Both the position numbers and the translations under genes were made by a program. The notes under the pieces were generated by a model. The model saw only the letters and a program-made list of their open reading frames with translations, made no database searches and was not told the DNA's origin. Below, piece by piece: positions 1 through 11,714 of a DNA stretch of 64,000 nucleotides. Origin of the DNA: Lacunisphaera limnophila (GTDB lineage Bacteria; Verrucomicrobiota; Verrucomicrobiia; Opitutales; Opitutaceae). The stretch lies in contig NZ_CP016094.1 in assembly GCF_001746835.1 (NCBI RefSeq), positions 1,612,001 through 1,676,000 of the forward strand, in the 5' to 3' direction. How positions within the stretch are numbered: position 1 is the first letter of the stretch; each line of letters begins with the position of its first letter.

Positions 1-1094
1 GTGCGGAGATACTCGGGGAAGGGGTGTTTCGCCGGGTCGGGGATGTACTCGAGCAGGCGGTTGGAGATGAGGTTGATCTCGACCAGCACGCGGCGGGTCT
101 GCTGGAGGAGGAGCAGGGTGTCGGGGTCCTGGATGAGATTCAGGCCATGGCCGATGCGGGAGGCGCCGAGGAGGAGGGTGTCGCGGACGTGCGAATCGGG
201 TCCGTCCATCTCGCCGCCGTGGATGGACAGGGCGAGGGTGGGGTACCGGCTGCGCAGCTCGCGGTACTTGGCGAGGAAGCGGGCGGGGTGGCCCTTGTTG
301 TTTTCCTCGATGCCGGCCATGTTGATGCCGACCCAGAGGTCGCGGTTGGCGTCGACGAACTGGTACAGGTTTTCCAGCTGGAATTCCGCGTTGGGCAGGA
401 AGCGCAACACGGTGGATTGGAAGCGCACGGTCACGCCGGTGGCGATGGCGTCGGGCTGGGCGAGGCGGGTGCGGAAATACGCGGCGGCGTCGGCGGGCGG
501 GATCGGCTTGCCCGCATTATCGGCGAAGCCCATCGCGCCTTGCTGGGTCTCGAGGTAGCGCATGCCCTCGGCGCCGTAGGCCTTGATGACCTCGACCAGG
601 ATCTCGCCGACCACGGTAAGATTCTGGTGCAACTGGCCCATGCGCGGCCAGATCCAGGTGAAGAATTCGTCGCGGCCCTCGCCGGTGCGGTCGAGGCGGA
701 GGGAATCGAGCCAGCCCTGTTTCTGCTCCGGCGTGAGGCGGTCGAGGCGGGTGTAGTCGGCCTGGAGCTCAGGGCTGAGGGCGTCGTAGCCGTGCTGGCG
801 GAGGGTGTGGTAGAGGATGAGCGTCACGCCGGTGCCGGGCACGGCGTGGAAGCGGGTGCGCGTGTAGAACGTGTCACCGCCGTTGCGCGCCGGGTCGGTC
901 GCGATGGCGTACCACCACTCGGGGAGGGCGGAGCCGCCGAGGTGGTTGTGCAGGTCGCCGCCCTTGGGCAGGGCGTAGAGGAAGGTGTAGAGCTGCGCCG
1001 GCGTGGCGGTGCGCTTGATCTCCTCAAAGCGGGGGGAGAAGGAGGCGGCCGAGGCGGAGGCGACGAGGCAGAGAAGCAGGCAGGGGATTCTCAT
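1..1094 (-). CDS. Secreted adenosine deaminase (3' end beyond window)
   Basis: Adenosine deaminase-like enzyme of the secreted growth-factor (ADGF/CECR1) type, expected to convert adenosine to inosine plus ammonia using a bound zinc. From the ATG at 1094 there is a short signal peptide (about residues 1-17) and then KGGDLHNHLGGS with the metal-binding HxH near 49/51. HGGE lies near 291-294 and SRIGHG near 311-316, all in the family order. The window edge removes the C-terminus, including the expected Asp pair, so integrity cannot be judged. It lies 131 bp downstream of the AzgA-type permease gene on the same strand, separated by an 81-bp palindrome. The signal peptide and neighbours argue for a periplasmic step of purine nucleoside salvage. 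Family call is firm; exact substrate is inferred. Confidence 0.88.
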   Translation of the reverse strand, partial: MRIPCLLLCLVASASAASFSPRFEEIKRTATPAQLYTFLYALPKGGDLHNHLGGSALPEWWYAIATDPARNGGDTFYTRTRFHAVPGTGVTLILYHTLRQHGYDALSPELQADYTRLDRLTPEQKQGWLDSLRLDRTGEGRDEFFTWIWPRMGQLHQNLTVVGEILVEVIKAYGAEGMRYLETQQGAMGFADNAGKPIPPADAAAYFRTRLAQPDAIATGVTVRFQSTVLRFLPNAEFQLENLYQFVDANRDLWVGINMAGIEENNKGHPARFLAKYRELRSRYPTLALSIHGGEMDGPDSHVRDTLLLGASRIGHGLNLIQDPDTLLLLQQTRRVLVEINLISNRLLEYIPDPAKHPFPEYLR

Positions 1095-1143
1095 GGGGCG
1101 AAGGTAGGCGAGTGGCGAGGGAGGCCGCAACGAATTGCTGGGC

Positions 1144-1224
1144 TGTAGGGCGGGGTCTCCGAACCCCGCCGCGAGCGCGATATCACATTCGAACCAAAGC
1201 GGGATTCGGAGATCCCGCCCTACA
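1144..1224. repeat. 81-bp palindromic element, copy 1
   Basis: Element bounded by TGTAGGGCGGGGTCTCCG and its complement (ends CCCTACA), with a central GATATCAC. It lies between the permease and the adenosine deaminase genes. It matches copies at 7844-7924 and 8873-8953, all exactly 81 bp. The long inverted arms could fold as a hairpin and might attenuate transcription between the two genes. The right arm of this copy has diverged slightly. Confidence 0.9.
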
Positions 1225-1225
1225 A

Positions 1226-2569
1226 TCAGAACAACCCGGCGAGGATGGCGCGGATGAGGTGGAGGCTGAAGATGAGGGCGAGGAGGTGCGTAAGGAGGGA
1301 GGTTTCCTTCATGCGGCCGGTGGCGATCCGGATGACGCTGTAAGCGATGAGGCCGAGGCCGATGCCCTCGGCGATGCTGAAGCTCAGCGGGATGCCGGCG
1401 ATGATGAGGAAGACCGGGGCGGTCTCGACGAAGTCGTCGAGCTTCATGCCGGCGACGGACTGGAACATGAAGATGCCGACGATCACCAGGGCCGGGGCGG
1501 TGGCCGCGGCCGGGATCGCCAGGATCACGGGGGTGAGGAACAGGGCGAGGAGGAAGAGGATCGCGGTGGCGGCGCCGGTGAGGCCGGTGCGCCCGCCCGC
1601 CTCGACGCCGGAGGCGGACTCGATGTAGCTGACGACCGTGGAGGTGCCGAAGAGCGAGCTGAGGATGGCGGCGAAGGAGTCGGCCACGAGGGCGCGGCCG
1701 GCCTTGGGTAGCTTGCCGTCCTTGTCGAGCAGGCCCGCGCGCTGCGTGACACCGATCAGGGTGCCGATGTTGTCGAACATGTCCACGAGCAGGAGCGTGA
1801 GGATGATCGGCAGGGCCTTGCCGAAGTCGTGCAGCAGCAGGTCGAAGTTGAGCTGAAACATCGTCGGCAGCGGCGAGGACGGCAGGGAGAAGAGCGAGCC
1901 CGGCATGGTCGTGACGGTGCCGCCCTGTCCGTTGGAGACGAAGAGGCCGGCGAGGGTGACGGCGAGGATGGAGAGGATGATCGCGCCGGGGACCTTGCGG
2001 GCGACGAGGACGGCGGTGAGGAGGATGCCGCCGAAGCAGAGGAGGACGGCCGGGGTGCCGAAGTCGCCGTGGGTGACGAAGGTGGCGGGGCTGGCCACGA
2101 CGATGCCGCCGTTCTTCAGGCCGATGAAGGCGATGAAGAGGCCGATGCCGCAGGTGATGGCGAGCTTCAGCTGGTGGGGGATGGCGGCGATGATCTTCTC
2201 GCGCACGCCGGTGACGGAGAGGGCGAGGAAGATGCAGCCGTTGACGAAGACCAGGCCGAGGGCGGACTGCCAGGAGACGCCGAGCCCGAGGCAGATGGTG
2301 AAGGCGAAGTAGGCGTTGATGCCCATGCCCGGGGCGAGGGCCAGCGGGTAGTTGGTCATGAACCCCATGATCAGGGTGCTGACCGCCGCGGTGAGCGCGG
2401 TGACCGTAATGAGCGCGGCCTGGGGCATGCCGGCGGCGGCCAGGATCGCGGGGTTGACCGCGAGGATGTAGGCCATCGCGGCGAAGGTCGTGAGGCCGGC
2501 GGAGAGTTCGCGGGCGACGGTCGTGCCGTTCTCCGGGAGCCGGTAAAGGCGGTTGAGCAGCGAGGTCAT
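1226..2569 (-). CDS. AzgA/PbuG-type purine base permease (NCS2 family)
   Basis: Inner-membrane proton-coupled transporter for adenine, guanine or hypoxanthine. The 447-residue product is the normal length for AzgA/PbuG and begins with the family-typical 'NGTTVARELSAGLTTF' segment. It is followed by about a dozen hydrophobic segments, the motif 'LALAPGMGINAYFAF', and the AzgA-branch signature FGTSTVVSYIESASGVEAGG followed by RTGLT. The start at 2569 overlaps the stop of the upstream nucleosidase gene as ATGA, so the two are probably translationally coupled. In this operon it would import the free bases released in the periplasm by the upstream enzymes. Family is clear; which purine it prefers cannot be read from sequence. 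Confidence 0.9.
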   Translation of the reverse strand: MTSLLNRLYRLPENGTTVARELSAGLTTFAAMAYILAVNPAILAAAGMPQAALITVTALTAAVSTLIMGFMTNYPLALAPGMGINAYFAFTICLGLGVSWQSALGLVFVNGCIFLALSVTGVREKIIAAIPHQLKLAITCGIGLFIAFIGLKNGGIVVASPATFVTHGDFGTPAVLLCFGGILLTAVLVARKVPGAIILSILAVTLAGLFVSNGQGGTVTTMPGSLFSLPSSPLPTMFQLNFDLLLHDFGKALPIILTLLLVDMFDNIGTLIGVTQRAGLLDKDGKLPKAGRALVADSFAAILSSLFGTSTVVSYIESASGVEAGGRTGLTGAATAILFLLALFLTPVILAIPAAATAPALVIVGIFMFQSVAGMKLDDFVETAPVFLIIAGIPLSFSIAEGIGLGLIAYSVIRIATGRMKETSLLTHLLALIFSLHLIRAILAGLF

Positions 2570-3402
2570 GGGGTGGCGGGCAAGGGAGGCAGATTTTGCA
2601 GGAAGCTGACAGTGAAAAGCGCGGTGGCGCGGGCGGCCATGGCGTAGAACGGCACGCCCTCGTAGGGGGCGTCGCTGACGACCCGGAAGGCGACGTAGCG
2701 GATACCGTAGGCGTGGGCGAGGGCGGCGATGTGGCCGGATTCCATCTCCTCGACGTCCATGCCGAAGGTCTTGGCGGACCACTGCACGCGGTCGAGTTCG
2801 AGGTTCACCTCGTGGGCCGAGCCGATGATGCCGGGGTAGACGCGGCCCATGGGATTGCGCGTGCGTTGGGCGACGGCGAGCGCGGCGGCGTCGCCCGCGA
2901 AGCCCGTGGGATAGGCGACGAGCTCACCGGTGGCGGGATCGCGGAGGCGCTGGGGCAAGGGCGTCCAGGTGAGGGCGTCGCTGCCGGCGCCGGCCGCGCG
3001 GACGGGCGTGATGAAGTTGCCGTAGTCGAGCGTGCGCCGGCCGATGATGATGTCGTGGAGCGAGAGGTAGGGCACCTGGGCGCCGCTGGTGCCCTGGTTG
3101 ACGATGAGCTTCGGCGCGAACTCCTCGATGCCGAGGATCGTGGCGGTCGTGCAGTTGAGGAGGCCCTGCCCGGTGAGGGAGATGGCGACGGAGTGCGAGC
3201 CGATCCGGCCGGTCCAGAAGGTGAAGCGGCCGAGCTCGATTTTCTGTGAGTCCTCGAGGGCCTCGAGGATGTCGGCGACCTCGGGACGTTCGGCGCCCTG
3301 CACGAGGACATCGACGGGGGCGGCGCGGAGGGCGGCCGTGAAGAGCAGGAGGAGCCCGGTCAGGATCAGGCGGGAGGGCCCGCCAAAGAAGGACAGGTTC
3401 AT
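2566..3402 (-). CDS. Exported nucleosidase/phosphorylase-like protein (PNP_UDP_1 fold), paralogue A
   Basis: A 278-residue member of the MTA/SAH nucleosidase and purine nucleoside phosphorylase superfamily, expected to cleave the N-glycosidic bond of a purine nucleoside or of MTA/SAH. Residues 1-27 form a signal peptide ending LRAAP. The core shows 'VNQGTSGAQ' (nucleoside phosphorylase-like loop), 'GSAHEVN', the ribose-binding stretch MDVEEMES and VVSDAPYEG, which carries the catalytic Asp. It overlaps its neighbours at both ends by ATGA (start 3402, stop 2566), so it sits inside a coupled operon. The signal peptide is unusual because most MTA/SAH nucleosidases are cytoplasmic. Whether it uses water or phosphate, and which nucleoside it takes, is not known. 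Confidence 0.82.
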   Translation of the reverse strand: MNLSFFGGPSRLILTGLLLLFTAALRAAPVDVLVQGAERPEVADILEALEDSQKIELGRFTFWTGRIGSHSVAISLTGQGLLNCTTATILGIEEFAPKLIVNQGTSGAQVPYLSLHDIIIGRRTLDYGNFITPVRAAGAGSDALTWTPLPQRLRDPATGELVAYPTGFAGDAAALAVAQRTRNPMGRVYPGIIGSAHEVNLELDRVQWSAKTFGMDVEEMESGHIAALAHAYGIRYVAFRVVSDAPYEGVPFYAMAARATALFTVSFLQNLPPLPATP

Positions 3403-4151
3403 GGGAGGACCTCCAGGAGTTGCAGCACCAGCGCGGCGGCTTCGCCGGGCTGACCGTCGATGACGCGCAGGCCGAAGGCGGGCACGCCAAGGAGCAGGGC
3501 GCAGCCGGCGACGTGGGCGGATTCGCCGTCCTCGGTGTCGGTGCGCCACTGGGTGCGAAGATAGGCGATGCGGTCGGCCTCGCGGTTGACCTGGTGGGCG
3601 GAGCCGAGCACGCCGGGGACGAGGCGGCCGCGGGGGGCGGTGAGCTTTTGAGCGGCGGCCAGGACGGCGGGGTCGGCGGGGAAGTGGGCCTGATGGGTTT
3701 CCTCTTCGCCCGGGGTCATCAGCGGGTGGAGCAGGGGGTGCCAGGTGAGGGGGGCGGTGCCGGTGCCGAGGTCGCGGTGCGGCGAGACCATGCCGTCGAA
3801 AGCGGCGAATTCGCGGCTGAGCACGACATCGCCGGCCTGCAGGGCCGGGTCGTGGGGCCGGGCGGCGCCGTAGGACACGACGAGGCGCGGGGCATAGCGG
3901 CGAATCGCGAGGGTGGTGGCGGCGACGGCGTTGAGCGGATCGCCCTCGGTGCGGGTGAGGACGACGCGGCGCGGGCCGAGAGTGCCGAGCCAGAACTGCC
4001 AGCCGGCGCGGGACTCGGTGCGGACGTCGGTCATTTTGGCCAGGAGGGGCTGCAGTTCCGCCTCAGTGGCGGCGGTGAACAGGATGTCGGCCCCGGCGGC
4101 CCGCAGGGTGACCACCAGCAGGACAAAGAGAGGGAGGAATGACCGCCTCAT
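3399..4151 (-). CDS. Exported nucleosidase-like protein, diverged paralogue B
   Basis: A 250-residue paralogue of the next gene downstream. It shares the signal peptide (residues 1-20), the order of strands, the 'VVSYGAARPHD' loop (equivalent to VNQGTSGAQ) and GSAHQVN (equivalent to GSAHEVN). The ribose-binding stretch has changed from MDVEEMES to DTEDGESA, while an Asp is kept in LRVIDGQPGE where paralogue A has VVSDAPYE. This suggests tandem duplication followed by specialisation on a different nucleoside, or partial loss of activity. Start 4151 overlaps the NUP gene stop and the stop overlaps the paralogue A start (both ATGA). The superfamily call is good; function beyond that is inference. 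Confidence 0.72.
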   Translation of the reverse strand: MRRSFLPLFVLLVVTLRAAGADILFTAATEAELQPLLAKMTDVRTESRAGWQFWLGTLGPRRVVLTRTEGDPLNAVAATTLAIRRYAPRLVVSYGAARPHDPALQAGDVVLSREFAAFDGMVSPHRDLGTGTAPLTWHPLLHPLMTPGEEETHQAHFPADPAVLAAAQKLTAPRGRLVPGVLGSAHQVNREADRIAYLRTQWRTDTEDGESAHVAGCALLLGVPAFGLRVIDGQPGEAAALVLQLLEVLP

Positions 4152-5227
4152 GGTTGGGGGGCGGCGGACGGGATCTCGGTCTCGTAGCGATCCCAGCCCT
4201 TCACCAGGGCATGGACGACTTGGGAGCCGACCGCGTGGGCGGCTTCGAGGGACGGAATAAAGGCGGAGTAGTGGCCGATGCCCTCGCCGGCGAGACTCTG
4301 GGCGGCGGTGAGGCCCGGGGGCTGCATGTCGTGGTTGCTGGCGGTGCGCAGAACGAGCACGCGGTTGACGTCGGCGCGGCCGGCGCGGGTCAGGTTGGTG
4401 AGGGCGCGGAGCGTGCCGGTGTCCTCCATGGCGGTCGTGACGTAGTTGCCGCGGCCCTCGGTGTAATAGGCGACCCAGTCGTTGGCCCACTGGTTGAGGA
4501 GTTTCCCGTGCCAATAGGTGCTGGAGGCGAGGTTTGAACCGATGAGGACGGAGGGGGGCTGGAGGGCCTTGGGGTGGTCCTGATAGCGGGCCCGGAAACC
4601 CTGCACGGACTCGGTGTCCTGCAGCGGGGTGTTCTTGGTGAGCGCATAGGCCCACTGCAGTAGGCCCGGGTTGAGGGCGTAGGCGTTGTCGACCCGTTCC
4701 GCGGCCGGTTGCATGGGGGTGGCGTAGGGGGTCTTCTTGCGGATGGGGATGTAGCCGGTTTTCCAGTCGGCAGGGATCTCGCGGGCGTCGATTTCGTGCC
4801 CGAGGTCACCCTCGACCGCGTAATCGGTCCAGACGGCGGAGCCGGCGGAGGCGTCGGCGGGGTCCAGGCCGGCAATGCCAGCCACGAGCCAGTAGCTTTT
4901 TGAGAGGTCAAAACGCGGGTCGAGGCCGAGGGCCATGATGCTGCTGGCGGCGTTGGTGTTGCCCATGCCCGTGACGATGCCCAGGACGGAGCCATCGGCA
5001 TTGGCCCGCAGGTCGCGGTAGCCGGCGGGCAGGGGGATGACGCGGTCGAGCTTTTCGCGCTCGACCCAGAATTGGAATTCGCCCGGGGCGTCACCTATGT
5101 CGTTGCCCTGCTCAAACATAGCAACGACGACGACCTTGGGTCGCAGGACCTCGGCGGCGGGGCAGGCAACGACGAGAGTGAACGCCAGGCTGGCCGCCAG
5201 GCGACGGAACGGGGGGTGGGTGACCAT
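4148..5227 (-). CDS. NUP-family purine nucleoside protein (periplasmic)
   Basis: Matches the NUP family (purine nucleoside permease, PF06516), soluble proteins related in fold to nucleoside phosphorylases. First gene of the leftward purine operon. I chose ATG 5227, not the in-frame codon at 5281, because MVTHPPFRR followed by a hydrophobic run gives a clean signal peptide (to about residue 24). Family landmarks visible are 'MFEQGNDIGDAPGEFQFW', 'GIVTGMGNTNAASS', 'WLVAGIAGLDP', 'TAMEDTGTLRAL' and 'RTASNHDMQPPG'. The family name implies transport, but there is no multi-span membrane region, so a periplasmic nucleoside-binding or cleaving role is more likely. 129 bp separate its start from the divergent TonB receptor gene, which suggests joint regulation. 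Confidence 0.85.
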   Translation of the reverse strand: MVTHPPFRRLAASLAFTLVVACPAAEVLRPKVVVVAMFEQGNDIGDAPGEFQFWVEREKLDRVIPLPAGYRDLRANADGSVLGIVTGMGNTNAASSIMALGLDPRFDLSKSYWLVAGIAGLDPADASAGSAVWTDYAVEGDLGHEIDAREIPADWKTGYIPIRKKTPYATPMQPAAERVDNAYALNPGLLQWAYALTKNTPLQDTESVQGFRARYQDHPKALQPPSVLIGSNLASSTYWHGKLLNQWANDWVAYYTEGRGNYVTTAMEDTGTLRALTNLTRAGRADVNRVLVLRTASNHDMQPPGLTAAQSLAGEGIGHYSAFIPSLEAAHAVGSQVVHALVKGWDRYETEIPSAAPQP

Positions 5228-5324
5228 GGGGCGGGCTTTAGCAGGGGGCATACCGGGGAGGGTGTTTTTTGTCGCCAACAAACCGGGAGTGGCGGTGGCA
5301 TATGGCGTGCTTATTACACAATGC

Positions 5325-5338
5325 TGGCGTCCACGCCA
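5325..5338. promoter_or_regulatory. Candidate operator palindrome before TonB receptor
   Basis: TGGCGTCCACGCCA is an inverted repeat with 6-bp arms and a 2-bp centre. It lies 18 bp before the receptor ATG, inside the divergent NUP/TonB promoter region. No regulator gene is next to it, so this rests on symmetry and position alone. Confidence 0.3.
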
Positions 5339-5356
5339 TCACCTCTAACACCTACC

Positions 5357-7711
5357 ATGAATACCAACTTGCTACGCACGTTGCTGTCCGGCCTTGCGCT
5401 CGCCAGCCTCACCGGGCCCTCGTTCGCCCAGACCACCCCGCCGGTGGACAATTCCCCGCCGACCGACGGCGAAGTCCTGGAGCTCGAACGCTTCAAGGTG
5501 ACCTCCGGCGTCGACGTCGAGGCGATCGTCCTGCCCATCGCCCGCCCGTTCAACTCGGTGTTCGGCACCGATGACAACATCGTCGACGTGCCGCGCAACG
5601 TCACGATCATCTCCCGCCAGCAGCTGAGCGACATCAGCATCGAGAGCGTGCTGGACTTCTCCAAGCTGACCTCCAGCGCCTTCACGACGACCAACTTCGG
5701 CGCGCCGTCCAACGCCAGCATCCGCGGCCAGTCGGCCGACGTGTTCCTGAACGGCGTGCGCTCGCGCATCACCTCCAACGGCAACGGTCTCCCGGTCGAT
5801 TTCAACTCGGTCGAGTCCGTGAACATCGTCAAGGGCCCCGCCACCGCGGTGCAGGGCGCCTCGATGTACGTCGGCGGCTTCATCGATCTCGTCTCCAAGC
5901 GCCCGTACTTTGACAAGACCAAGGGCTCGGTCAGCGCGACCATCGGCTCCTACAACACCAAGCGCTGGACCGTCGACGTCGGCGGCCCGATCTCCAAGGA
6001 GCTGGCGTACCGCGCCAGCTATTCCGGCGAGGACAGCGACGGCTACTACGTCAACGGCTTCAAGAAGACCCACTCCTTCTACGGCGCCCTGAGCTACCGC
6101 CCGAACCCGAACTACGAGCTGTTCGTGAACAGCCAGTTCTTCGTCGCCAACTACACCGAAAACTGGGGCATCAACCGCGTGACCCAGAACCTGATCGACC
6201 ACGGCCTCTACACCACCGGCATCAATATCAACAACGGCTCGGCTGGCTCGCCCTCCGACGCGCAGAACTCGTATCACGTCCAGGCCGGCGGCAACACCAT
6301 CGCCTGGGGCCCCGAGGTGAAGATCAACCGTCACACCCGCCTGCTCCGTCCGTCCAACGACTCCTACGGCGAGGAGTTCAACATCCAGGCGATCCAGACC
6401 CTCAAGCTCTCGGCCGAGATGAAGCTGAAGAACACCTCGTTCTACAGCCACACGGAGCGCGACACGATCAGCACCTACTACTACTCCGAGATCATCGATC
6501 CCTCCTACTTCATGGAGAACCGCACGGAGTTCATCTATGACAGCCCGAAGTTCACGGTGAACACCGGCCTGGACCTCCGCTACCAGCGCACCAAGGCCTA
6601 TGACGACTACTTCTTCGAGCCGGCCAACGTCTGGGACATCACCAAGGACGTGAACTTCATCAACGTCTACAACTCCGCCGCGTTCGTGAACGGCGGCCGC
6701 GGCTTCGCGGTCCCCGGCTGGCCCGGCCGCTTCGCCCAGCCCGGCCTCTTCAACGGTGACACCAACGACTCCAAGGGCACGACGATCGGGCCCTTCGCCC
6801 AGTCCACCTGGAACATCAACGACAAGTGGAGCCTCGTGACCGGCGTGCGCGTCGACTACTTCAAGGCCAAGGTGCGCGAACCGCTCCTGCCCCCGTTCGT
6901 GCGGGATGAGATGAGCGTGTCGCTGCCCAACTACAACGTCTCGCTGATCTACAAGCCCACGACGACCTCGAGCGTCTACGCCACCTACAACAACTCGAAG
7001 AACACCTCGGGTGCGGTCGGCAACGGCGGCGGCATCACCGGCTGGGACGGCAACAACTTCGGCCAGCTCGACAAGGAGCTCTTCCAGCAGCCCAGCGAGC
7101 TGTACGAAATCGGCACCAAGTACGCCCTCGCCGGCAACACCGTGTTCCTGAACTTCGCCGCCTACGACCAGAAGCGCACGGCCAAGAGCACCAGCTCCAC
7201 CGTCGTCCAGGAATACCACTACAAGGGCTTCGAGGCCGAGCTGAACTACCAGCCGAACAAGCACATCTACGCCACGATGTCGTACTCCTACATCGATGCC
7301 GAGGCCTCCGTCGGCTTCCAGTACGCGATGTTCGACCCGGGTGAGCTGCCGCCGGGCAACTCCACCAACGCGGCGATCATGTTTGGCAACACCGCCAAGG
7401 TCTCCGGCCTGCCCTCCCACCTGTTCAACGCCCTCGCCTCGTACTCGTTCGACAACGGCTTCTCGGTCAGCGCGAACGCCGTCCTCACGGGCGAAATGAA
7501 CAACAACACCGCCGGCAGCCTCGTCATCCCGTTCCAGTACACGATCGACGCCTCGGCCTCCTACGCCTGGAAGGACTGGAACTTCCGCATGCAGATCCTG
7601 AACGTCACCGACGAGGAGAACTGGTCGCCGCCGAACGCCGTTTACGGCAACGGCTCGATCCTGGCCCTCCCCGGCACCCAGGTCCAGTTCTCGGTCAAAT
7701 ACAGCTTCTGA
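5357..7711 (+). CDS. TonB-dependent outer-membrane receptor (purine locus)
   Basis: Outer-membrane TonB-dependent transporter of 784 residues. ATG 5357 gives a signal peptide to FAQ (about residue 25), then a short linker with 'VLELERFKVTSG', where related receptors of this phylum carry LELSPFVV. The plug contains 'RNVTIISRQQLSD', 'NASIRGQSADVF' and 'VESVNIVKGPATAVQGAS'. A long beta-barrel of alternating aromatic strands ends in the typical C-terminal Phe (VQFSVKYSF). It is divergent from the NUP operon and followed by a strong terminator, then by the SAM hydrolase and xanthine-type permease. The context suggests uptake of nucleosides, SAM or a related nucleoside compound, but barrel sequence alone does not show substrate; siderophore-type receptors look similar. 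Confidence 0.9.
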   Translation: MNTNLLRTLLSGLALASLTGPSFAQTTPPVDNSPPTDGEVLELERFKVTSGVDVEAIVLPIARPFNSVFGTDDNIVDVPRNVTIISRQQLSDISIESVLDFSKLTSSAFTTTNFGAPSNASIRGQSADVFLNGVRSRITSNGNGLPVDFNSVESVNIVKGPATAVQGASMYVGGFIDLVSKRPYFDKTKGSVSATIGSYNTKRWTVDVGGPISKELAYRASYSGEDSDGYYVNGFKKTHSFYGALSYRPNPNYELFVNSQFFVANYTENWGINRVTQNLIDHGLYTTGININNGSAGSPSDAQNSYHVQAGGNTIAWGPEVKINRHTRLLRPSNDSYGEEFNIQAIQTLKLSAEMKLKNTSFYSHTERDTISTYYYSEIIDPSYFMENRTEFIYDSPKFTVNTGLDLRYQRTKAYDDYFFEPANVWDITKDVNFINVYNSAAFVNGGRGFAVPGWPGRFAQPGLFNGDTNDSKGTTIGPFAQSTWNINDKWSLVTGVRVDYFKAKVREPLLPPFVRDEMSVSLPNYNVSLIYKPTTTSSVYATYNNSKNTSGAVGNGGGITGWDGNNFGQLDKELFQQPSELYEIGTKYALAGNTVFLNFAAYDQKRTAKSTSSTVVQEYHYKGFEAELNYQPNKHIYATMSYSYIDAEASVGFQYAMFDPGELPPGNSTNAAIMFGNTAKVSGLPSHLFNALASYSFDNGFSVSANAVLTGEMNNNTAGSLVIPFQYTIDASASYAWKDWNFRMQILNVTDEENWSPPNAVYGNGSILALPGTQVQFSVKYSF

Positions 7712-7728
7712 TTTCTGGCCATATCCCC

Positions 7729-7760
7729 AAGGCCGCCCCTCACCGGGCGGCCTTTTTTTT
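7729..7760 (+). terminator. Rho-independent terminator of the TonB receptor gene
   Basis: Perfect 10-bp stem AAGGCCGCCC/GGGCGGCCTT with a 6-base loop, running directly into eight T residues, 17 bp after the receptor stop codon. Confidence 0.93.
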
Positions 7761-7781
7761 GGACCGGTGCTTCGTTTGGGT

Positions 7782-7837
7782 GGGAGCGAGCTCGCTCGCG
7801 ACTCGACACCCCGGGTGTCGCGAGCAAGCTCGCGACT
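7782..7837. repeat. REP-like palindromic repeat (GAGC/GCTCGCGAC type)
   Basis: Nested palindrome: outer arms contain GAGCGAGCTCGCTCGCGACT and CGCGAGCAAGCTCGCGACT, inner arms CGACACC and GGTGTCG (7804-7820). It is adjacent to but distinct from the 81-bp element that starts at 7844. Intergenic REP-like units of this kind are usually scattered in a genome; only one clear copy is in the window. Confidence 0.7.
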
Positions 7838-7843
7838 GTCTTT

Positions 7844-7924
7844 TGTAGGGCGGGGTCGCCGAACCCCGCCTTCGTTCGACGGTGATATCACGTTCGAGGC
7901 GGGGTTCGGCGACCCCGCCCTACA
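7844..7924. repeat. 81-bp palindromic element, copy 2
   Basis: Arms TGTAGGGCGGGGTCGCCGAA and complement, perfect over about 27 bp per side, around a centre with the palindrome GTGATATCAC. Its asymmetric centre is the reverse complement of copy 3, so copies 2 and 3 flank the SAM hydrolase gene in opposite orientation. Confidence 0.93.
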
Positions 7925-7963
7925 ACCTGATCCCACGCCACTGAGCTATTTTATTTCCTCCCC

Positions 7964-8866
7964 ATGAAATCCCGCTCCCTGCTTCTGTTGCTCCTGCTCG
8001 TCACCGCCCGCCTGGCGGCCGGCCCCAACGCCATCGTCATCCAGACCGACTTCGGCACGAAGGACGGTGCCGTCGCCGCCATGAAGGGCATCGCCTTCGG
8101 GGTCTCGCCCGGGCTGCCGATCTTTGATCTCAGCCAGGATAATACGCCCTACAACATCTGGGAGGCGGCTTACCGCCTGAAGCAGACCGCCACCTTCTGG
8201 CCCGCCGGCACGGTGTTCGTCTCCGTGGTCGACCCGGGCGTCGGGACCGAGCGCTCGTCGATTGTGCTCCAGACCAAGAGCGGACATTTCTTCGTCGGCC
8301 CCGACAACGGCACCTGGACGCTGGTGGCCGAGGAACTGGGCGTCGCCGCCGTGCGCCGCATCGACGAGACGACCAACCGCCGGGCCGGTTCCGAGAAGAG
8401 CTATACGTTCCACGGCCGCGACATCTACGCCTTCGTCGGCGCCCGACTGGCCGCCGGCCTGATCCCCTACGAGCAGGTCGGGCCGCTCCTCGAGGCGAAG
8501 GTCGTGAGCCTGCCTTACCAGAAGGCCACCCGCGAGGGTGCCGCCCTGCTCGGCACCATCCCGATGATTGATTTCCACTATGGCAATGTGTGGACGAACA
8601 TCCCCGACACCCTCTTTGAGGCGCTGACGCCCGCGCCCCAGTTCGGCGAGACCTTTACCGTCACGATCTTTCATGACGGCAAGGAGGTCTGGCGCGGCCC
8701 CATGCCCTACGCCCGGACCTTTGGCGAAGTGCCCGAGGGTTCGCCGCTGCTTTACCTGAACAGCCTGCTCAACGTGGCCTTCGCCCTCAACATGGGCAGC
8801 TTTTCCGAGACCCACGGCCTCTCCTCCGGCGGCGCCTGGACCGTGCGGGTCGAGCGGGCGAAGTGA
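7964..8866 (+). CDS. Exported S-adenosyl-L-methionine hydrolase (DUF62 family)
   Basis: DUF62 enzyme (SAM hydroxide adenosyltransferase / SAM hydrolase, related to fluorinase and chlorinase), expected to convert SAM plus water to adenosine plus methionine. 300 residues, normal length. A Leu-rich signal peptide (residues 1-19, ending RLAAG) precedes the conserved 'IVIQTDFGTKDGAV'. The catalytic Asp-Arg-His set seen in archaeal and bacterial hydrolases is present: Asp near 90 and Arg near 97 in VDPGVGTER, and His near 150 in TFHGRD. PDNGTW is also conserved. The halogenase-specific insertions are not evident, so hydrolase is favoured over chlorinase or fluorinase. Export is unusual since SAM is cytoplasmic; here the enzyme could feed adenosine to the neighbouring deaminase. 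Flanked by inverted 81-bp elements. Confidence 0.88.
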   Translation: MKSRSLLLLLLLVTARLAAGPNAIVIQTDFGTKDGAVAAMKGIAFGVSPGLPIFDLSQDNTPYNIWEAAYRLKQTATFWPAGTVFVSVVDPGVGTERSSIVLQTKSGHFFVGPDNGTWTLVAEELGVAAVRRIDETTNRRAGSEKSYTFHGRDIYAFVGARLAAGLIPYEQVGPLLEAKVVSLPYQKATREGAALLGTIPMIDFHYGNVWTNIPDTLFEALTPAPQFGETFTVTIFHDGKEVWRGPMPYARTFGEVPEGSPLLYLNSLLNVAFALNMGSFSETHGLSSGGAWTVRVERAK

Positions 8867-8872
8867 GTTTCT

Positions 8873-8953
8873 TGTAGGGCGGGGTCTCCGAACCCCACCT
8901 CGAACGTGATATCACGGTCGAACGAAGGCGGGGTTCGGAGACCCCGCCCTACA
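8873..8953. repeat. 81-bp palindromic element, copy 3
   Basis: Arms TGTAGGGCGGGGTCTCCGAA and complement around GTGATATCAC. It starts 6 bp after the SAM hydrolase stop and ends 39 bp before the permease start, so it lies in the transcript between the two genes and could form a strong hairpin there. Confidence 0.93.
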
Positions 8954-8992
8954 CTTCCCGCCCTCTGGCCCGCCGCCTGCTGAACCGCCCCC

Positions 8993-10333
8993 ATGGACAT
9001 CCTACCCCCGCCGGCTGCGCCGGAGAAAAACACGACGATCCTCTATGGCCTGGAGGACAAGATCCCGCTCGGGCCCTCGGTGCTGGTCGGGGTGCAGCAT
9101 GTGTCCGCCATGGTGGTCGGTACGGTCACGCCGCCGCTGATCCTGGCGGGCGCCCTGAAGTTTTCCCCGGCCGACACCGCCTATCTCGTGAGTATCGCGC
9201 TGCTGGCCTCGGCTTTTGGCACCTGGCTGCAATGCCGCCGGCGCGGCCCGGTCGGGTCGGGTCTGCTGAGCGTCACGGGCACGAGCTTTGCGTTTCTCCA
9301 ACCGTTGTCACTGGCGGGCCAAGCCGGCGGGCTCGCACTCATGCTGGGCGTTTCGTGCGTGACGGCGCCGCTGTTGATTTTGCTGGCACCCTTCATCGCG
9401 CGCCTGCGGCGCGTCTTCACGCCGCTGGTCTCGGGGGTGGTGGTGCTGCTGATCGGCGCCTCGCTGATCCCGACCGCCTTCTATGGGTTAGCGACGCCAG
9501 TGGCGCCCGACGCGCCGCCGTGGCTGGGCCTCGTGGTCGGTCTGGTGGTGGTGGCGGTGATTGTCGGCGCGCAGGCCTCGGGCCGTGCCTGGGCGCGCAT
9601 CGGCGGCGCGGCGCTCGGTATCATCGCGGGTTGTGCCGTGTGCGGGTGGTTTGGCGGCCTGCGGGCGCCGGAGGCCGGTAGCGGCGCGTGGTTCACGCTG
9701 CCGCGGTTTTTCCCGCATGGGTTCGCCTTCGATTGGAAATTTGTGCCGCCGTTCCTGTTCATCACGCTGGTATCGATGCTGGAGGCGATCGGTGACATCA
9801 CCGCCACCTCGCAGCTCTCGGGCCTGCCGGGCAAGGGGCCCGACCATTGGAAGCGGATTTCGGGCGGGGTGCTGGCCGACGGCATCACGAGCACGGTGTC
9901 GGCGCTGTTTGGCGGTTTTCCCAGCGCGACCTATGCGCAGAACAACGGCGTCATCCAGATCACGGGCGTGGCGAGCCGCCGCGTCGGTTACGTGATGGCC
10001 GTGATCCTGGCCCTGCTCGGGTTGGTGCCGGCGGTGGGCCGCTGGATCACGGTGCTGCCGCCGCCCGTGCTGGGCGGGTTGGCGCTGATGATGTTCGGCC
10101 TCGTGGCGGTGGCCGGCGTGCGCCTGCTTTTCTCAGCGGGCCTCGGCCAGCGCGAGGGGGTGATCGTGGCCCTGTCGCTCGGCATGGGCCTCGGTCTGCC
10201 GACGCAACCCGCTCTGCTGGCGAGTCTCCCCGGCTGGTTGCACGGCTTGCTGGAGTCCGGGATCTCTGCCGGCGGGCTCACCGCGCTGGTACTGACGCTC
10301 GCTTGGCCGGGACCGGTGAGCGCGAAGGATTGA
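8993..10333 (+). CDS. Uracil/xanthine-type permease (NCS2, UraA/XanP branch)
   Basis: Inner-membrane nucleobase:proton symporter of 446 residues, the usual size. Landmarks are 'LYGLEDKIPLGPSVLVGVQH' at the N-terminus, 'GSGLLSVTGTSFAF', 'VSMLEAIGDITATSQLSG' and the branch signature QNNGVIQITGVASR. It belongs to the UraA/XanP/UapA branch of NCS2, distinct from the AzgA-type permease at 1226-2569, so the locus holds both major purine/pyrimidine importers. Long hydrophobic segments cover nearly the whole length. Given its neighbours, xanthine or uric acid is more likely than uracil, but this is inference from context. Confidence 0.9.
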   Translation: MDILPPPAAPEKNTTILYGLEDKIPLGPSVLVGVQHVSAMVVGTVTPPLILAGALKFSPADTAYLVSIALLASAFGTWLQCRRRGPVGSGLLSVTGTSFAFLQPLSLAGQAGGLALMLGVSCVTAPLLILLAPFIARLRRVFTPLVSGVVVLLIGASLIPTAFYGLATPVAPDAPPWLGLVVGLVVVAVIVGAQASGRAWARIGGAALGIIAGCAVCGWFGGLRAPEAGSGAWFTLPRFFPHGFAFDWKFVPPFLFITLVSMLEAIGDITATSQLSGLPGKGPDHWKRISGGVLADGITSTVSALFGGFPSATYAQNNGVIQITGVASRRVGYVMAVILALLGLVPAVGRWITVLPPPVLGGLALMMFGLVAVAGVRLLFSAGLGQREGVIVALSLGMGLGLPTQPALLASLPGWLHGLLESGISAGGLTALVLTLAWPGPVSAKD

Positions 10334-10365
10334 AATGGAGCCCGGGGGTTCTCGCCCCGCCTCTC

Positions 10366-10440
10366 AAACGTGGGGCCGAGCTTGCTCGATCCTATGGCGT
10401 ATCATGTCGCAACCTCAGGACCGACCAAGCTTGGTCCCGA
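10366..10440. repeat. Possible degraded REP-like region with GACCAAGCTTGGTC palindrome
   Basis: The gap between two convergent genes holds CCGAGCTTGCTCGATCC and a perfect 14-bp palindrome GACCAAGCTTGGTC (10423-10436). The GAGCTTGCTCG core resembles the REP-like repeat at 7782-7837 but the copy is too diverged to be certain. It could also serve as a bidirectional hairpin between the convergent permease and Rieske genes. Confidence 0.35.
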
Positions 10441-10458
10441 CGGAAACAAGGCCGGCTC

Positions 10459-11466
10459 TCAGGCGGTGAAGCCTCGGCCGAGCCCGAGCCGCGCCAGCTG
10501 GCGGCGGTATTCCACGGAGGTTCGGTCGGCCTTCACGTGGACTTCCTCGCCGAGGTCGATGGGCAGGTCCTCGGGATTCTGTCGCTCCACGATCCGCTGG
10601 TCCTCGGCGTAGACCTTTTGTTGAAAGGCGATCAGGTCCGCGACGGGCTGGTCGCGGTCGAAGTTGCGCGCGACCACCGCAAACACGCGGGTGCGGCGGG
10701 CCGAGACCGGACACGCGGCGTTGAACACCACAAGCCGGCCGCCGGCCGGAAAGTCGACGGACAGATGGGCGGTGAAGGGAAGATGCAGCTGGTAGATGCG
10801 CCGCCAGGTCTGTTGCGCGGCCGCAGGATCGCTCACGTTGCCCACGCGGCTGGCAAACTCGGCGCGCACCCCGCGGGGCGTCGCCTCAACCTCATAGCGG
10901 GGCACCACGGGATCGCTGGCGGCGAAGGTGGTGGGATGAACAAAGGTGAAATGCGCCACGTCGCAGAAGCTCTCGACCTGTCGGCCGGCTGACGCATCCC
11001 AGTCAAAGGGCGGCACGGTCACGATCTGGAACGCCGGGTCGACGTGCTCGGGGAAGTCCGGCACCGTGTCCGGTTGCGCCCCCGGATCGAGACTGACCCA
11101 GACAAGGCCGTGGCGTTCGCGCGCGGGAAAGACCCGGAGGGCCAGCTTGCCCGGGATCGGAGCGTTCGGATGGGCCGGGATGAGCGTGCAGCGGCCGGTG
11201 CCGTCATAGCGATAGCCGTGGTAGGCACAGGCGATGGCACCTTCCTGCATGCACCCGAGGCTGAGGGGCGCACCGCGATGCACGCAGAGATCGGCCGCAA
11301 CCGTGAGCCCGGTGGCGGTACGGTAGAGTACGAGATCCTGGTCCAGCAGGCGGGCGGCGAACGGCGCCGTTGCGGTCACATCTGCCGATAGCGCGACCGC
11401 ATGCCAGCAGCGTGCGAGCACGGTCCAGTCGGTGGCGGGAAACGTACAGTTCCGGGGCGGGGTCAT
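10459..11466 (-). CDS. Rieske non-haem iron oxygenase, alpha subunit type
   Basis: Two-domain Rieske oxygenase of 335 residues. The N-terminal [2Fe-2S] site is complete: Cys61-x-His63 (CVHRG) and Cys80-x2-His83 (CAYHG). The C-terminal domain carries the mononuclear iron ligands in [14 protein letters not shown] (His near 172 and 177, bridging Asp near 169). Size and layout resemble O- or N-demethylating enzymes such as vanillate or methylxanthine demethylases, more than the larger ring dioxygenases. No reductase gene is in the window. The start ATG 11466 overlaps the stop of a broken adenosine deaminase reading frame (ATGA), which ties it to purine metabolism. An N-methylpurine demethylase role is an inference from this setting; other substrates are possible. 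Confidence 0.82.
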
Positions 11467-11699
11467 GCGATTAACTCCATCGGCTCCTCGGGCGGCTTCG
11501 CTATCCAGGGCATCGCGACAAACACGGCGGCCATCGTGATGCAGGCGTTGTCCCAGAAGGGCGGGGGTGCGGCGAAGCGTTGGGGGTCCATCTTCTGCAG
11601 CAGCCCAAACGGACAGGCCCCCTCGATAGGGAGGTGGGTCTCGGTTTTGGGCAGGCGCAGGAGAAATTCCGCAAGGCCTTGCTCCGCAAGGTAAGGCAT
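11463..11699 (-). pseudogene. Truncated cytosolic-type adenosine deaminase remnant
   Basis: Short frame (about 79 residues from ATG 11699; a GTG at 11714 is also possible) that starts like the N-terminus of an adenosine deaminase: '[14 protein letters not shown]' corresponds to the usual LPK.E.H.HIEG. The second metal-binding His is replaced by Pro. The family's 'FWDNA' region follows near residue 50, and then the frame jumps to unrelated or C-terminal sequence ending EPMELIA. Most of the roughly 330-residue enzyme is missing, without a signal peptide. It reads as an internally deleted gene whose stop codon still overlaps the Rieske oxygenase start, preserving the ancient operon joint. Confidence 0.6.
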
Positions 11700-11714
11700 A
11701 AACGCAAGGTGCAC

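Follow-up and report, generated by a model that had tools for sequence, protein, structure and literature searches.

At one end of a 64,000-nucleotide stretch of the Lacunisphaera limnophila genome (the window in what follows; bases 1612001-1676000 of the genome G000, a single contig of 4.2 Mb), a TonB-dependent receptor gene stands among genes for exported nucleoside-splitting enzymes and purine base permeases. We consider it likely that this locus takes up exogenous purine nucleosides and degrades them to ammonia and glyoxylate. More broadly, we lean towards a verrucomicrobial clade of TonB receptors that specifically serves purine nucleosides and bases. These receptors would supply an exported line of deaminase and nucleosidases, two permeases for the bases and a pathway that breaks down the ring, extended by modules for S-adenosylmethionine (SAM; the exported SAM hydrolase) and for methylated purines (the NdmA-like Rieske enzyme); such a locus would be the purine counterpart of a polysaccharide utilisation locus.

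The gene calls were redone, and all nine genes named in an initial annotation of this DNA (receptor, SAM hydrolase, adenosine deaminase, two nucleosidases, NUP, two permeases and Rieske oxygenase) were recovered, each at or above its Pfam gathering score. Two divergent gene sets face away from positions 5228-5356 of the window. On the minus strand, the genes for an AzgA-type NCS2 permease (1226-2569), nucleosidase A (2566-3402), nucleosidase B (3399-4151) and NUP (4148-5227) overlap by 4 nt at every junction, and the gene for an exported adenosine deaminase-like protein (ADA, 465 a.a.) occupies -303 to 1094, with 1-1094 inside the window. On the plus strand, the receptor (5357-7711) is followed by an exported SAM hydroxide adenosyltransferase of the DUF62 family (the SAM hydrolase, SAMH; 7964-8866) and a xanthine/urate-type NCS2 permease (XanP; 8993-10333), with gaps of 252 and 126 nt; the Rieske oxygenase (10459-11466) lies on the minus strand. 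The initial annotation had called the locus complete, which it is not within the window, because ADA crosses the edge and genes of the purine-ring pathway follow immediately upstream. Intergenic palindromic repeats (gtagggcggggtc...), GC-rich and similar to one another, were seen by eye at 1143-1227, 7836-7925 and 8874-8955. Riboswitch control was rejected, since Rfam at gathering scores matched nothing in the window; in six loci, its only matches were two tRNAs.

The receptor is accompanied by purine genes in its relatives

We found 141 relatives of the receptor in genome contigs and retained the best 80 loci (L151 lies on the same contig as L094). As the control, we used 20 hand-picked regions that surround other TonB receptors, from the same genomes and from related ones; in one of them, L198, the receptor itself was under the search threshold. 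Two gene sets were counted: the families named in the window, and a wide purine set that added AdeC (adenine deaminase), IunH and PurE, included after they had been seen in the first regions, together with guaD, XDH, uraD and puuD, which were taken from the upstream region. At a distance of up to 3 kb from the receptor, the wide set was represented in 67 of the 80 loci and in 2 of the 20 controls (Fisher 9e-10), and the window-named families in 55/80 and 1/20, respectively (Fisher 1.5e-7); these values overstate the independence of the loci, since the species are related. Anywhere in the locus, the two sets were represented in 68 and 57 of the 80 loci, and in 31 and 25 of the 36 loci of at least 20 kb, and because many contigs are short, absences make these numbers lower bounds. 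The comparison with control receptors led us to reject a receptor with random neighbours. The initial annotation had set beforehand, as its refuter, an association of receptor homologues mostly with other cargos, and the neighbourhoods point the other way.

The receptor contains the PF07715 plug and the PF00593 barrel, both above cut-offs, and its AF2 model (mean pLDDT 81.7, with a low-confidence N-terminus) had 413 matches in the PDB with E<=1e-3; all of the 50 listed are TonB receptors. On this basis, together with the neighbours in relatives, we infer that the receptor carries purine nucleosides. A very improbable alternative is that it is an iron-siderophore receptor that stands beside purine genes by chance. 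The best Foldseek matches are indeed siderophore receptors, at ~12-17% identity, which does not name the cargo, and the best NCBIfam match is the siderophore family Fiu; the scores stay far below the cut-offs (Fiu 51.7 vs 686; MxcH 17.5 vs 925). The difference between the receptor loci and the controls argues against a chance neighbourhood, and no iron-uptake gene was recognised by eye among the neighbour clusters printed.

The families found in the 80 loci were AzgA (37), AdeC (30), NUP (25), ADA (22) and XanP (21), followed by the rarer SAMH (9), MTAN B (6), MTAN A (5), IunH (2) and Rieske (2). When 885 neighbour genes were clustered without a gene list, AdeC (30 loci), AzgA (30), NUP (23), ADA (21), XanP (16) and an MTAN-type cluster (12), the shown members of which start with a signal-like stretch, outranked all other clusters except the receptor. 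Next came a GTP-cyclohydrolase-II-like gene (11 loci) and an amidase-type gene (10). The former (e.g., L166:8117-9751) lies at a median of 148 bp from the receptor. A gene that looks PurE-like by eye lies near the receptor homologue in two genomes (L104:8012-8509 and L105:11330-11854), which hints at control in common with purine synthesis. The orientation is also regular: in 21 of 22 instances, XanP lies downstream on the receptor strand, and in 25 of 30, AdeC lies upstream on it. Lacunisphaera and Opitutus metagenome-assembled genomes (L123, L128, L131 and L120) hold the most similar copies of the arrangement as a whole. A role of AdeC as a substitute for ADA was rejected, because the two co-occur at chance level in the 62 loci of at least 12 kb.

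These counts also bear on the nature of the cargo. The receptor might mainly import free purine bases (adenine, hypoxanthine, xanthine), the exported nucleosidases being an add-on in some lineages. The base-acting AzgA, AdeC and XanP are among the commonest neighbours, 32 of the 84 labelled rows of the receptor tree hold genes of these types without NUP or ADA, and the signal-peptide rule described below is positive for no more than 3 of 30 AdeC proteins. Set against this are a clade of 22 receptor rows, 19 of which have NUP or ADA, several as a TonB-NUP-ADA-AzgA run, and the MTAN-type cluster near the receptor in 12 of the 80 loci. We regard import of bases as the main function as unlikely, and keep nucleosides as the predicted cargo, with bases as probable companions. 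One tree row, L094_g, was wrongly labelled 'none'; an adenine deaminase adjoins its receptor.

Deaminase, nucleosidases and SAM hydrolase with predicted export

Export was judged by a home-made signal-peptide rule, not by SignalP, and members with E > 1e-30 were left out of the counts. Among the window proteins, the rule was positive for ADA, both MTAN-type nucleosidases, NUP and the SAM hydrolase and negative for the Rieske protein, in agreement with most of the signal peptides claimed initially. It fails on the window receptor, whose signal was seen by eye only, and it gave a false positive on xanthine dehydrogenase. Over the relatives, the rule was positive for 18/21 ADA, 21/25 NUP, 8/9 SAM hydrolase, 66/83 receptor, 2/5 MTAN A and 1/1 MTAN B proteins; low classes besides AdeC were a second amidohydrolase (0/8) and Rieske (0/2).

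ADA matches PF00962 above the cut-off (109.9 bits) and contains the motifs HxH49, HGGE292, GHG315 and TDD373, which we take to have metal-binding and catalytic roles. Its matches to solved adenosine deaminases are weak (3.4e-19). The gene is tightly linked to nucleosidases: in the 103 genomes of the order that we scanned, own genome included, a full-length exported-type ADA was present in 11, with NUP within ~3 kb on the same contig in 10 and a PNP_UDP_1 gene adjoining ADA in the eleventh (G063). Thus, all 11 genomes have ADA next to a nucleosidase-type gene or at most ~3 kb from one. In G047, four tandem NUP genes adjoin ADA (L237:5262-9565).

Nucleosidases A and B both match PF01048, and the nearest solved chain of both is 5b7g (7e-42 and 3.2e-32, respectively), identical in sequence to 5b7q, which is titled periplasmic MTA/SAH nucleosidase (Aeromonas; the title ends at 'Aerom'). 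Nucleosidase A retains ME220 and SD243 of the MTAN fold, and nucleosidase B has changed active-site motifs (GES209, RVID229).

NUP carries the Pfam name 'purine nucleoside permease' and is a clear member of the family (PF06516, 379.8 bits vs the cut-off of 27), but a membrane-spanning permease was rejected in view of its fold. No PDB sequence match was found up to E 1; the AF2 model (mean pLDDT 87.9) is globular alpha/beta, and among the 50 Foldseek matches listed, ranks 1-48 are MTAN or futalosine hydrolase chains. NUP is thus modelled as a soluble nucleosidase-fold enzyme with an export signal, predicted to be a purine-nucleoside nucleosidase or phosphorylase. Met267-Glu268 and Ser297-Asn298 are invariant across 26 aligned NUPs. 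The Ser-Asn appears to stand where MTANs carry Ser-Asp, an equivalence judged by eye from motif order and from the fold, since the hhalign profile comparison of NUP with MTANs gave no significant match, either with or without a wrong fragment, L139, in the NUP alignment. In 6-oxopurine-specific phosphorylases, Asn favours 6-oxopurines. By analogy, the Asn of NUP suggests that inosine and guanosine are its preferred substrates; this would fit ADA acting first. The genome holds a second NUP copy (G000:C1:495349-496386), 47% identical and interrupted by a single in-frame stop, so that the gene may have decayed.

The SAM hydrolase matches SAM_HAT_N and SAM_HAT_C above cut-offs, and its nearest solved relatives belong to the DUF62/chlorinase group. 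Its VVDPGVGTER88 and TFHGRD148 are aligned with 2zbu, whereas 2q6o, which by score and length is almost the same protein as the chlorinase 2q6i, differs there; we take these residues to play a hydrolase-type role, where the chlorinase group differs. The initial annotation had named SAM or nucleosides as the cargo, and it is quite improbable that SAM, methylthioadenosine or related nucleosides form the main one. In favour of it, the SAM hydrolase and the MTAN-type nucleosidases of the window look exported, and SAMH lies downstream on the receptor strand in all nine loci that hold it. However, near 71 of the 80 receptors no SAMH was seen, part of these loci being short contigs, and a 67% SAMH orthologue in G066 has no recognised purine neighbour (in a search set that then excluded adenine deaminase). 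The initial interpretation is partly supported, its SAM component weakly so, and purine nucleosides remain our predicted cargo.

Base permeases and the Rieske oxygenase

The initial annotation had distinguished two NCS2 permeases of different type. The nearest solved chain of AzgA (PF00860) is the adenine/guanine permease AZG1 (2e-62), so that the protein is a predicted importer of adenine, hypoxanthine and guanine. XanP passed the NCS2 family TIGR00801 (314.1 vs 291.8) and stayed below the PbuX cut-off of TIGR03173 (363.9 vs 414.15); its nearest solved chain is the uric acid-xanthine permease UapA (4.9e-40).

The Rieske protein, a predicted cytoplasmic methylpurine N-demethylase, matches the Rieske and VanA_C Pfam families and keeps the Rieske and mononuclear iron motifs. 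The nearest solved chains are the methylxanthine demethylases NdmA (1.6e-54, residues 19-327) and NdmB (3.5e-41). Orthologues (E <= 1e-20) were found in 11 of the 103 genomes, at 14 places besides its own. Among the ten regions fetched, four adjoin an ADA-like deaminase, one adjoins an amidohydrolase resembling 8-oxoguanine deaminase (495.9 bits, below the cut-off of 532), one lies ~7 kb from XdhC/XDH-like genes, three have a transporter next to the gene (the one checked is SSF by Pfam), and the neighbours in the last are uninformative. The reading of the gene as an unrelated bystander was rejected, given NdmA as the nearest chain and the deaminase neighbours in orthologue regions. Its sequence relatives make demethylation of methylated purines the probable activity, although purines modified in another way may be the substrate. 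At L228:6034-7755 and L231:7966-9540, the Rieske-ADA pair is joined by a membrane-like protein that Pfam does not match; it is possibly a purine permease of an unnamed family.

The purine-ring pathway upstream of the window

Directly upstream of the window, G000 1597051-1611576 is occupied by purine-ring genes. From far to near, these encode XdhC, xanthine dehydrogenase (1258 a.a., both subunits joined in one protein), ureidoglycine aminohydrolase (UGHH), allantoinase (AllB), allantoate amidohydrolase, 5-hydroxyisourate hydrolase (UraH), OHCU decarboxylase (UraD), malate synthase A, a cytidine-deaminase-fold deaminase, the membrane domain of PuuD and a signal-peptide protein. XdhC, XdhA, UGHH, AllB, allantoate amidohydrolase, UraH, UraD and malate synthase A passed curated cut-offs, and a PuuD-type urate oxidase inside the set matched Pfam Urate_ox_N. 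The degradation enzymes (xanthine dehydrogenase, urate oxidase, UraH, UraD, AllB, allantoate amidohydrolase and UGHH) are thus present together, although the PuuD frame is split. By its position, the cytidine-deaminase-fold protein may be guanine deaminase. Since most of the ring pathway lies here, the window contains the import half of a purine locus of ~26 kb.

Apart from PuuD (G000:C1:1608596-1609797, L003:8596-9797), which lies outside the window, no urate oxidase was found in the genome. A classical uricase elsewhere was rejected, because PF01014 was not found genome-wide; Urate_ox_N matched once. Between puuD and ADA lies the gene for the signal-peptide protein, 573 a.a. long and without a Pfam match (G000:C1:1609855-1611576, L003:9855-11576).

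A proposed route and the observations against it

The sequence establishes which genes are present, their order, overlaps and families, and their recurrence. In the route that we propose, purine nucleosides (and probably bases) would cross the outer membrane via the TonB receptor. In the periplasm, ADA would convert adenosine to inosine, as its family and export signal suggest, and NUP and nucleosidase A would cleave inosine, guanosine or adenosine to the base, while the SAM hydrolase would supply adenosine from SAM where SAM occurs. Judging from the nearest solved relatives, AzgA would bring in adenine, hypoxanthine and guanine, and the UapA-like permease xanthine and urate. The ring would then be opened inside the cell by the upstream pathway, ending in glyoxylate for malate synthase, and the Rieske enzyme would probably demethylate methylated purines.

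Several observations weigh against this proposal. The first group concerns the enzymes. NCBIfam equivalog cut-offs were missed by ADA (TIGR01430, 121.3 vs 216.55), so that its substrate is not certain, and likewise by nucleosidases A and B, by the SAM hydrolase (127.1 vs 350; 101.2 vs 470) and by the adenine deaminase of L094. The cytochrome c part of PuuD follows directly after the membrane domain in another frame, with a weak Pfam match below the cut-off; because the domains are in different frames, a non-functional urate oxidase or an error in the sequence is possible. Neither a gene that would convert ureidoglycolate to glyoxylate nor a regulator was identified.

The second group concerns linkage. 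Over the whole control regions, the wide set was represented in 4/20 and the window-named set in 2/20. The matches within 3 kb in the controls were AzgA at L202 (G028:C7) and a nucleoside-hydrolase-like open reading frame at L208 (G066:C22). In four f8 genomes, AdeC, ADA, AzgA and NUP stand together without a receptor of the window family in the ~20 kb fetched. No purine gene was seen in 12 of the 80 receptor loci, and seven of these (L159, L162, L163, L164, L167, L171 and L180), four titled palsa or bog, form one nested clade in the tree of 85 receptors; the cargo of this clade may have changed. Among 18 relatives from the order in the first round, 7 had NUP, adenine deaminase, ADA/AzgA or a nucleoside hydrolase nearby (9 if PurE-like genes count) and 9 had none, with some names given by eye. 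Of five more distant receptor homologues listed on Pseudoalteromonas plasmids, the two looked at, of 28% identity, are adjoined by other genes, without purine neighbours. Together with the nested clade, these homologues indicate that the association marks a clade and not all relatives of the receptor. As for the two control receptors with a near purine match, L202 and L208 are perhaps further purine receptors.

Relation to known systems

The Rus locus of Bacteroides thetaiotaomicron (BT2803-2809) reportedly holds SusC/SusD and a nucleosidase. Like the present locus, it combines functions for the use of one nutrient: it is linked to ribose scavenging, and nucleosides figure in its scheme (PMC12596196). 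Rus is described as serving ribose, whereas the predicted target here is the purine ring, with base permeases and ring-degradation genes; nor is there a SusC/SusD pair of the Rus type, since Pfam gave no SusD match among the nine window proteins scanned.

The enzymes have their own precedents. The periplasmic MTA/SAH nucleosidase is the nearest solved relative of both window nucleosidases, but these are tied to AzgA and NUP by the 4-nt overlaps near a receptor, and the motifs of nucleosidase B are altered. NdmA and NdmB act on methylxanthines, and the Rieske protein would act on a methylpurine, its orthologue adjoining an ADA-like deaminase in the four regions noted above. Clusters for purine catabolism consist of xdh, uraH, uraD, puuD, allB, allantoate amidohydrolase and UGHH; the same enzymes occur here, joined to an outer-membrane receptor and exported nucleoside-splitting enzymes. 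NUP has already been placed within the purine/uridine phosphorylase superfamily (PMC9815663), and a lumen-proteome study tabulates a 'purine nucleoside permease' (PMC7880944).

Searches of the open-licence PMC literature listed none that deals with TonB-dependent uptake of purine nucleosides by a receptor of this kind. Purines are small, and the usual view is that they enter via porins. Several records of receptor relatives carry lake or pond names. Marine bacteria draw down nucleosides (PMC8027193), and a P. aeruginosa isolate grows on adenosine (PMC6555301).

If the proposal is true, a likely cargo would be named for a whole clade of unassigned TonB receptors, the Pfam name 'purine nucleoside permease' would become a testable enzyme activity, and environmental data would gain a genomic marker for purine-nucleoside scavenging. 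If many species have kept an energy-driven receptor for purines, this would suggest that they compete for trace nucleosides as a source of nitrogen and carbon.

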